A stretch of 64,000 nt of DNA from Streptomyces sp. NBC_00704 (lineage in GTDB: Bacteria > Actinomycetota > Actinomycetes > Streptomycetales > Streptomycetaceae): the NCBI RefSeq assembly GCF_036226605.1, contig NZ_CP109000.1, positions 2,538,501 through 2,602,500 of the forward strand, given 5' to 3'. Positions 50,091-51,967 of this stretch are shown in pieces. The position numbers and the translations under genes were made by a program. Below the pieces are notes generated by a model. The model did no database searches and was not told where the DNA came from. It worked only from the letters and a program-made list of their open reading frames with translations. Each line of letters begins with the position of its first letter. Within the stretch, counting starts at the first letter, position 1.

Positions 50091-50159
50091 CGGGGGCAGG
50101 CCGGGGTAAGTGGAGTAATCCGGGAGGAAAGCGGTCATACACGGCCTTACGCTCCGAAT

Positions 50160-51008
50160 ATGCGATCTTCACGTGCCCGGCTCGGCATCATGGCCTCGCT
50201 CCTCGGCCTGGTGGCGGTCCTCGGGGCGGTGTGGCTGGTCCGCTCGGCCACGACGGACAGCGGAGACACGGCAGCGAGCGACGCGACGAGCGGCTCGGCC
50301 GACGTCCGGTCGAACGGCTCGGCCGACGCGGACGGCGGCGGAGACGTGACGGCCGACGGCGGAAGATCCCGCGCCGGGGAGGCGTCGAACGGCGGTAGCC
50401 AGTCGCCGGGCGGGAGCGGAAAACACAGGGACGGGCCGAAGGTCCCCAACGGCGTGAACATCAACGGTTCCGGGAACGACGGTTGCGCGATCGTCCTGAA
50501 CATGGAGGAGACCCCCGCGACCGTCACAAGCGTCTCCTTCAAGGTGACCGAAGGACCCGGGAAGCAGAAGCCGAAGCTCCGGTCGGACAATGGCGCACGC
50601 TGCCACAGGAAGCTGTACCAGCAGGCCAACCCCTGCGATGGCTTCCACTTGAAGGCCCTCGAGGGGGGTTGCGTCGCGGGGGTGGCCGCCTTGTCGAACG
50701 TCGAAGGCGGCCACTACGAGGTGCGAGGGACGCTCACGGCCACCTTCCTGTGCGACAACGTCGACAAGAACCCGTGCAGACGAGTTCAGGACTGGCACGG
50801 ACCGAAGCCCACGCCACAGCACCCAGTACTCGTCACGGGTGAGTCCGGCTCCCTCGAAACGTCGATCGAGGTCCCGCGCTCCCAGAGCAGTTCGCCCGAC
50901 GACTCCTCCTCCAAGAGCCCCTCCCCGCCCGGCGGGGTCTCGCCGCCGCCCGTCTCTCCTTCCCCCCGGCCCGAGCCCGACAGCCCGTCCGCCTCGGAGG
51001 AGGGATGA
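50160..51008 (+). CDS. Membrane-anchored envelope protein of unknown function
   Basis: A 282-residue protein with one N-terminal transmembrane segment (about residues 9-27, LGIMASLLGLVAVLGAVWLV). A Ser/Gly/Asp-rich linker (30-95) follows, then a compact domain with six Cys (DGCAIVL, ARCHRK, NPCDGF, GGCVAG, FLCDN, NPCRR), and a Ser/Pro-rich tail typical of wall-spanning regions. The domain begins GVNINGSGNDGCAIVL. I do not recognise it. Its stop overlaps the ATG of the next membrane protein (ATGA), so the two are coupled and likely form a complex. Confidence 0.75.
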   Translation: MRSSRARLGIMASLLGLVAVLGAVWLVRSATTDSGDTAASDATSGSADVRSNGSADADGGGDVTADGGRSRAGEASNGGSQSPGGSGKHRDGPKVPNGVNINGSGNDGCAIVLNMEETPATVTSVSFKVTEGPGKQKPKLRSDNGARCHRKLYQQANPCDGFHLKALEGGCVAGVAALSNVEGGHYEVRGTLTATFLCDNVDKNPCRRVQDWHGPKPTPQHPVLVTGESGSLETSIEVPRSQSSSPDDSSSKSPSPPGGVSPPPVSPSPRPEPDSPSASEEG

Positions 51009-51967
51009 CGGGCGGGCCGTCGCCGGAACGCGAGCCCCCCGCGCCCCCCGCGCCCCCCGCGCCTCCCGCGCCTCCCGCCGACGACGGGTCGGCCGTCCCC
51101 GCGCGGTTGCGGCGGCTCGCCGAGGCACTCGGGCCCGCGACCCTCGCGACCGCGCTGCTGCTGTACTTCGGCTACATCGCCACCCGCGCGCGCTACGCCT
51201 ACTTCGGCGTCCCCGTGGAGATGACCGGCCGCTCCAACCAGGATCTGATGCTGGACGGCATGGAGGTCGTCTTCGTGCCGGCGGCGATGATCTTCCTGGG
51301 GGTCATGCTGCTCGTCGCGATCCACGCCCTCACCCTGTGGGTCCTCTCCCGCGACGCCACCGCCGGGGACGAGACCTCGGCGGCCGCCTTCCTCGCGTAC
51401 GGCTTCGTCCTCGTCGGCGTCCTGCTGATCGGCAGGGCGCTGATCGGCATCTTCGTCCAGGGCTCGGACGTCAGCGTGGTGTTCGGCACCACCCCGCTGT
51501 CACTGGCCTTCGGGCCGGCGGCGGTGGCGTACGGCGTCTGGATCTACGGCCGTCAGCGAGGACGCCCCCTGCTCTCCTCGCGCCTGGCCCGCAACGGCGT
51601 CATGTGCGCGGTCGCTCTGGGCGTCTTCGGGCTGTTCTGGGGGTCGACGCAGCTGGCGTGGGCCTACGGGAAGGGGCGGGGCGAGGGCGACGTGGAGGGG
51701 CTCGGCAAGCGTCCCGAGGTCGTCGTCGACACCAAGGAGCCGCTCGACGCCCTGCCCACCGGCGTGCGCGAGAGCCGCCTCGGAGGCGACGGGCGGGGCG
51801 GCCGGACGTACCTCTACCGCTACCGGGGCTTCCGGCTGCTCATGGCGTCGGGCGGGCGGCTGTTCCTGGTCACGCCGCAGTGGCGGGCAGGCCGGGACCA
51901 GACCGTCGTGCTGCCCTACGGAGACGACATCCGGGTGCAGCTCGTCGCTCAGCAGGACGCGGACTGA
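51005..51967 (+). CDS. Polytopic membrane protein of unknown function, coupled to the upstream gene
   Basis: The 320-residue protein begins with a Pro/Ala tract (APPAPPAPPAPPA type), followed by four or five transmembrane helices between residues 38 and 220. It ends in a hydrophilic domain of about 90 residues with LYRYRGFRLLMASGGRLFLVTPQW. There is no known catalytic motif. Start and stop signals couple it to the Cys-containing anchored protein upstream. Its last 19 bases overlap the 3' end of the convergent TetR gene. Confidence 0.75.
   Translation: MTGGPSPEREPPAPPAPPAPPAPPADDGSAVPARLRRLAEALGPATLATALLLYFGYIATRARYAYFGVPVEMTGRSNQDLMLDGMEVVFVPAAMIFLGVMLLVAIHALTLWVLSRDATAGDETSAAAFLAYGFVLVGVLLIGRALIGIFVQGSDVSVVFGTTPLSLAFGPAAVAYGVWIYGRQRGRPLLSSRLARNGVMCAVALGVFGLFWGSTQLAWAYGKGRGEGDVEGLGKRPEVVVDTKEPLDALPTGVRESRLGGDGRGGRTYLYRYRGFRLLMASGGRLFLVTPQWRAGRDQTVVLPYGDDIRVQLVAQQDAD

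Follow-up and report, generated by a model that had tools for sequence, protein, structure and literature searches.

A possible accessory envelope complex of Streptomyces encoded by overlapping genes for a six-cysteine surface protein and a polytopic membrane protein

The overlapping genes and their products

The DNA analysed was a stretch of 64,000 nucleotides (the window) from Streptomyces sp. NBC_00704, whose genome assembly is 8.2 Mb. It carried two genes, named A and B here, between the gene of a beta-lactamase-type hydrolase and a TetR gene. The genes and their parts were located as follows.

50160..51008, + strand: gene A, surface protein of 282 aa (open reading frame and translation)
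50181..50246, + strand: hydrophobic signal-anchor or signal peptide, A residues 8-29 (from sequence; similar in locus L002 of S. hilarionis)
50250..50444, + strand: Gly/Ser/Asp-rich low-complexity linker, A residues 31-95, about 65 aa (from sequence)
50445..50876, + strand: six-Cys ectodomain, A residues 96-239 (all six Cys present in both species compared; low-confidence all-beta prediction)
50877..51005, + strand: Ser/Pro-rich tail, A residues 240-282 (the fastest-changing part of A; 65% identity to S. hilarionis)
51005..51008, + strand: ATGA, shared by the B start codon and the A stop codon
51005..51967, + strand: gene B, polytopic membrane protein of 320 aa (open reading frame; tblastn and profile homologues)
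51125..51670, + strand: five predicted membrane segments, B residues 41-222 (hydropathy and charge over 54 family sequences; helices in a low-confidence model)
51671..51964, + strand: C-terminal domain, B residues 223-320, about 98 aa, predicted to be extracytoplasmic and strand-rich (alignment; strands in a low-confidence model)

A and B are real genes. The four-base overlap given in the initial annotation was confirmed, with both open reading frames present on the + strand and the ATGA common to both. In S. hilarionis (L002), orthologues of A and B recurred in the same order, with a 4-nt overlap reading GTGA, a GTG start codon for B and, as in the window, hydrolase, TetR and aldo-keto reductase genes on the flanks, whereas the lengths of the A tail and of a proline repeat in B were not equal to those of the window. 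The identity between the two species was 84% for A and 89% for B. The dN/dS of A was 0.35 overall (ectodomain 0.21, linker 0.41, tail 0.53) and that of B was 0.11 in the membrane region and 0.38 in the C-terminal part, which indicated that both are genes under constraint; in this two-species comparison, the A ectodomain and the B membrane region were constrained, and the A tail and the B C-terminal part were looser. The sequence TTACGCTCCGAATATG (window 50147-50162), with the A start codon at its end, was identical in S. hilarionis. A TANNNT-like element was located 6 nt 5' of the A ATG and would fit a leaderless transcript; a promoter and terminator scan found none.

Protein A was composed of a hydrophobic N-terminus, the linker of about 65 residues, the Cys domain and the Ser/Pro tail, in this order. 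The six-Cys external domain that had been claimed for it was borne out by its cysteines (C109, C148, C159, C171, C198, and C206), 6/6 of which were kept in S. hilarionis. A lipobox with Cys at +1 was missing from A, the first Cys being residue 109 as in S. hilarionis, and A was ruled out as a lipoprotein on this ground. The protein is probably held by an uncleaved signal-anchor, and the word “anchored” depends on this predicted segment; the composition of the tail would allow it to be “wall-spanning”. The AlphaFold2 model of the ectodomain, calculated from a two-row alignment, was all beta and poor (mean pLDDT 51.7), and Foldseek found no match at E <= 0.001 with this weak model. With regard to an Ig-type fold, the ectodomain had this all-beta model of low pLDDT, and no similarity was found using hhalign.

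The initial annotation had described B as having four to five helices and a hydrophilic end. The family alignment favored five segments, with extents by reading of about 41-58, 88-112, 127-150, 164-181, and 198-222, and placed the hydrophilic end outside by prediction. Over the 54 sequences, the mean number of Lys/Arg was 4.8 in loops 2-3 and 4.0 in loops 4-5, compared with 2.0 in loops 1-2 and 0.9 in loops 3-4. Since the Lys/Arg-rich loops were 2-3 and 4-5, the topology of B is predicted to be N-terminus in and C-terminus out, and the two loops predicted to be inside averaged 27.2 and 26.9 residues. The N-terminus, which was trimmed from the alignment, was low-complexity and proline-rich over about 40 residues in the window's B and longer in some family members. 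A proline-rich repeat, PPAPPAPPAPPAPP, was found in it at window 51035-51076, and nine residues of this repeat were absent in S. hilarionis.

The residues conserved in at least 70% of the 54 B sequences were Gly, Pro, Ala, aromatic, aliphatic, Ser, and Arg, and no D, E, H, K, N, Q or C was among them. No conserved charged residue was found within the helices, and all of the conserved Arg residues were located in the C-terminal domain, which also contained the family motif Y-R-Y-x-G-L-R-L-L. The window's B departed from the conserved residues at some sites, with Gly 85 for Ser and Thr 290 for Pro. This set of conserved residues argues against a common-type enzyme, a proton-coupled carrier or an inward signal output, and on the predicted topology B had no cytoplasmic signalling domain of the kind expected of a transmembrane sensor or an anti-sigma type regulator. 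The AlphaFold2 model of B, also from a two-row alignment, consisted of helices and then strands and was poor (mean pLDDT 42.9); no fold of A or B is taken as established from these weak models.

The B family and its adjoining exported partners

Searching with B by tblastn gave matches of 27-30% identity on plasmids of Embleya and Rhodococcus (81% of B covered, E 7e-10, for Embleya), and the onward search from these found relatives on further plasmids of Rhodococcus, Nocardia, Streptomyces, and Nonomuraea. A profile built from 12 sequences, which over the five-helix and C-terminal region also recognised the window's B as a family member, gave 39 matches (E < 1e-25) in 35/246 Streptomyces genomes, the window's genome counted in, and 8 matches (E < 1e-40) in 7 genomes besides the window's in a phylum-wide draw of 396 genomes. 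These counts may be lower bounds, as 9 (Streptomyces) and 5 (phylum draw) first-look candidates were scored per genome; weak matches of E 3e-5 to 1e-3 in the Streptomyces set were left uncounted, and G124, one of the 35 genomes, had only a remnant (L090). One match (L007) was rejected as a false positive, being a DMT-type transporter by sequence reading. Two near-identical copies of the pair were observed on pRHL1 of Rhodococcus jostii RHA1 (L010, L016), each preceded by two genes that read as subtilase-like and alpha/beta-hydrolase-like.

Judged by sequence, B is a member of a wider orphan family in Actinomycetota that is partly plasmid-borne, and the sequence family of A has no such spread. 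The A ectodomain had no more matches among the 246 Streptomyces genomes outside the window's own (1/246), and in the named genome collection its only relative was that of S. hilarionis, in a scan that finds close relatives. Plasmid tblastn with A gave no match, and no relative was confirmed in the viral-contig scans. No homologue of A was detected beside any B except that of S. hilarionis in a comparison covering all partners but those of L091 and L092. In the tree of 54 B cores, the window's B and that of S. hilarionis grouped at 100/100 and then joined an Ig-like partner group, Rhodococcus L010 and L092 at 95/93; the branch of the window's B was long (1.56).

An exported Ser/Pro/Thr/Gly-rich protein was encoded next to B in 51/51 distinct, intact loci with readable flanks; in the window this is A, directly upstream with the ATGA overlap. 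The partner was upstream and co-directional in 40 loci (in one, L041, the contig ended within the gene and left only its tail to be seen), downstream and convergent in 10, with its stop edge lying between -13 and +42 nt relative to the stop of B, and downstream and co-directional in one (L091, with a possible 4-nt overlap). A possible start codon giving exactly a 4-nt overlap was found in 16/38 upstream-partner loci, including the window and S. hilarionis (38 of the 40 were counted, without L041 and L097). The coupling is thus supported more strongly than by a single overlap. The condition that the initial annotation had set for refuting it, frequent occurrence of either gene without the other, had two outcomes. 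By architecture, every readable intact B had an A-like neighbour in one of the three gene arrangements, and the decayed B piece L089 had none; by sequence family, A was seen with B only in the window and S. hilarionis, and B occurred in 35/246 genomes.

The 51 loci comprised 34/39 matches of the Streptomyces set (three others lay at contig edges and two were remnants), 7/8 of the phylum draw (the eighth lay at a contig edge), 9 plasmid records, and the S. hilarionis locus. L005 was dropped as a near-copy of L004, L014 as encoding the same protein as L063, L016 as the repeat of the pair on pRHL1, and L036 because it covers the place of L078; L045, L049, and L087 were dropped for lying at contig edges, and L089 and L090 as remnants of B. 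G190:C214, which starts at a contig edge, the plasmid hits H10-H12 (= H30-H32), H15 (= H23), and H24, and fragment hits in G545 and G430:C298 were kept outside the locus set.

Partners were first recognised by eye, and a fixed automatic rule (lipobox after a hydrophobic stretch, composition thresholds, and distance limits) was written after they had been seen. The rule fired at 38/46 B loci versus 3/262 other ORFs of the window and the fetched loci, with distances counted from the beginning of the profile match at B loci and from the first start codon of each control ORF; one of the three positive controls (L099) was a partner gene itself. The 46 loci exclude the window, L002, L041, L050, and L059. 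At the eight loci where the rule failed (L008, L078, L082, L083, L091, L093, L096, and L097) the partners were called by eye, and the controls were not read by eye. In a clustering of the neighbours (ORFs >= 90 aa with codon bias, blastp E 1e-8), B itself recurred in 47 loci and the largest other cluster in 6. These other clusters were made up of transposases, MFS transporters, the convergent partner, some generic families, antisense ORFs judged spurious, and context common to the near relatives of the window; in these short flanks, read at the cluster level, no phage, transfer or defence family stood out.

The upstream partners were assigned by eye to types whose names are a reading of the sequence. 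Two (in the window and S. hilarionis) were six-Cys proteins with a signal-anchor, 4 were Ig-like with two Cys, 5 were beta-like with four, 8 were helical and TPR-like, mostly with four Cys, and 21 had no globular domain. The types were clade-bound on the B tree, with the no-globular-domain type in two places. Across 51 rows and seven states, two of them being the convergent and downstream partners recognised after the tree was made, partner type changed 6 times, which is the minimum, compared with at least 23 changes (mean 27.4) in 200 shuffles. Comparison of profiles of four ectodomain types found no similarity. The nearest B rows with an ectodomain-bearing partner were the Ig-like group (Embleya L003; L067, L069, and L070), in which the upstream partner resembles A in having a linker, a small ectodomain, and a low-complexity tail but is a lipoprotein with two non-lipid Cys, and the hhalign probability to the A ectodomain was 0.3%.

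In a clade of ten loci (L011, L071, L078-L082, L084, L085, and L088), the partner lipoprotein also abuts a B-family gene, but on the opposite strand, unlike in the window. B had initially been taken for a “solo” gene here, with no A-like upstream gene in the ten loci or in L091; the convergent or downstream lipoprotein was then found, and the tree label “none” was replaced by the two corresponding partner states. At L078, an unrelated long lipoprotein gene ends upstream of B. In L078 and L080-L082, a similar sequence was seen just 5' of the B start and may be a shared promoter or leader. Three of the four convergent partners scanned showed ASH or HYDIN Ig-like similarity below the Pfam cut-offs, and that of L011 showed none. 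The partner of L091, whose B is distant, contained a DUF11 domain above the cut-off (E 1.6e-8).

The number of non-lipid Cys was even in 46/46 lipoprotein partners counted, being 0 in three and 2, 4 or 6 in the others (two or more in 43), which is consistent with extracellular disulfide pairing. Rows that are related do not count as independent cases, and some signal peptides offer two candidates for the lipid Cys. The 46 were drawn from the 51 partners without A of the window and of S. hilarionis (no lipobox), L041 (N-terminus cut), L097, and L091. All 46 contained the lipobox that is absent from the window's A.

Chromosomal setting and relation to known families

The TetR gene next to the pair had matches in 58/101 Streptomyces genomes at E <= 1e-60. 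When 30 TetR loci were fetched with 1.5 kb flanks, the window included, B sequence was found nearby in three (the window, L111, and L129). At L116, about 40 nt separate the hydrolase gene from the TetR gene, making this an empty site, and the slot was filled by a gene for a small secreted protein in L110 and by an oxidoreductase-like gene in L114 (names from sequence reading). In genome G025, A was gone and a frame-broken piece of B was kept. These empty, otherwise filled, and decayed slots in other Streptomyces genomes indicated that the A-B pair is accessory.

The decayed pair of G025 lies at about 2259-2740 of L111 (= L089, G025:C861) in the neighbourhood of the window, with the C-terminal piece of B beside the first MFS gene. 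A second remnant, L090 (G124:C1:8111000-8121000), consisted of a lipoprotein N-terminus followed in another frame by the last helix and the C-terminal domain of B. In L074/L129 (G089:C2), a pair of the type without a globular ectodomain was observed close to the TetR and aldo-keto reductase genes that also accompany the window's pair, here arranged in another order. The TetR/aldo-keto reductase region may be an insertion hot spot.

A and B had no convincing match in Pfam, NCBIfam or PADLOC, and the other B members and partners that were scanned had none either, except for the DUF11 domain at L091; both look to be envelope proteins outside known families, as the initial annotation had supposed. 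The best sub-threshold Pfam matches were taken as chance (DUF2339 in the B family, E 7.9e-4, 1/12 members) or as chance or low complexity (Trypan_PARP in the L015 partner, E 6.5e-4). Matches to PDB sequences, at best E 0.01 to opsins with the B profile and E 0.026 in another search, were also taken as chance. In PADLOC, 0/6 proteins were matched at E up to 1, and no model match marked A or B as a known anti-phage defence protein. No description of such a gene pair was among the literature matches listed, as judged from titles, term counts, and abstract openings. The glycoproteins of S. coelicolor include exported lipoproteins (PMC6593405), and by analogy Ser/Thr-rich tails could be glycosylated, but the relevant passages of that work contain no such gene pair.

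Possible functions of the pair

We propose that A and B form an accessory two-protein complex on the outer face of the envelope, in which a constant membrane base is combined with an exchangeable surface part; to us the case for this functional reading is evenly balanced. B would be the constant part, a base of five helices whose N-terminus is inside and whose small, strand-rich domain faces outward. A would be the exchangeable exported part, which is usually lipid-anchored and here probably held by an uncleaved signal-anchor. Its flexible Gly/Ser/Pro-rich stretches could reach into or through the wall, and in many lineages it would carry a small, probably disulfide-bonded ectodomain. A would dock on the outer loop and C-terminal domain of B, and the complex would display the ectodomain or tail of A to bind or block something outside instead of passing a signal or solute inward. 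Physical contact between A and B is suggested because the genes are adjacent and the partner type follows the B lineage. On the other side, the partner class is defined by architecture and not by homology, the window's A is without the lipobox of the other partners, the window's B is on a long branch, and the models of both proteins are poor. A ligand-binding role is weakened by the largest partner group (21/51), which by reading has no globular ectodomain.

A recognition or exclusion role fits with the patchy, partly plasmid-borne, and lineage-specific pattern of the pairs. It is conceivable, if rather unlikely, that they are a kind of recognition module not described before in actinobacteria, a stalked head that can be swapped on an unchanging membrane base, which recognises or excludes phages, plasmid donors or competitors at the outer face; the head would have been replaced, and gene order and strand altered, without separating the two. 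A narrower proposal is surface or superinfection exclusion, in which the pair acts as an outer-face barrier to phage DNA entry, conjugation or a competitor toxin and the exposed part changes with the attacker. The TraS/TraT-type exclusion pairs of conjugative plasmids consist of a lipoprotein and an inner-membrane protein, and set side by side from description the partner-B pairs have the same composition, but no transfer gene stands out in the short flanks of the A-B pairs. Distribution in 35/246 Streptomyces genomes, plasmid carriage, a variable chromosomal slot with an empty site, decay to remnants, and lineage-specific partners would be expected of such a system. We nevertheless consider it unlikely, given that the six proteins had no PADLOC match, that no phage, transfer or defence family was prominent among the recurring neighbours (not annotated one by one), and that the ectodomain was constrained and not diversifying between the two species (dN/dS 0.21).

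Alternatively, B could exist solely to anchor, assemble or protect A, and A alone would be the effector, such as a coat, an adhesin or a secreted antagonist. Adjacency, the possible translational coupling (4-nt overlap in 16/38), and the lack of candidate catalytic residues in B agree with a helper role, but lipid-anchored partners should not need a further anchor and no sign of A release was seen here, and we regard this explanation too as improbable. The “sensor or channel” of the initial annotation fared worse. A has an external domain and B spans the membrane, as signalling across the membrane or a channel would require, but the predicted inner loops of B are short, its N-terminus is low-complexity, its helices are without a widely conserved charged residue, and no signalling gene recurs widely nearby, which makes this reading very unlikely. 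That B merely tends to adjoin Ser/Pro-rich lipoprotein genes, which are common in actinobacteria, would account for partners without detectable homology across lineages, but this coincidence is highly improbable and already disfavored, since the rule fired at 38/46 B loci versus 3/262 control ORFs and adjacency was kept in three arrangements.

It is unusual for a functional unit to be indicated by a membrane protein whose linked class of partners changes in sequence, ectodomain, and even strand; to homology searches, the two are orphan genes. The partners of orphan membrane proteins can be found through architecture instead of sequence. If the exclusion reading were true, the pair would be a new type of surface defence for a phylum of drug producers. 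The A-B pair is a testable unit in an uncharted part of the actinobacterial envelope proteome.
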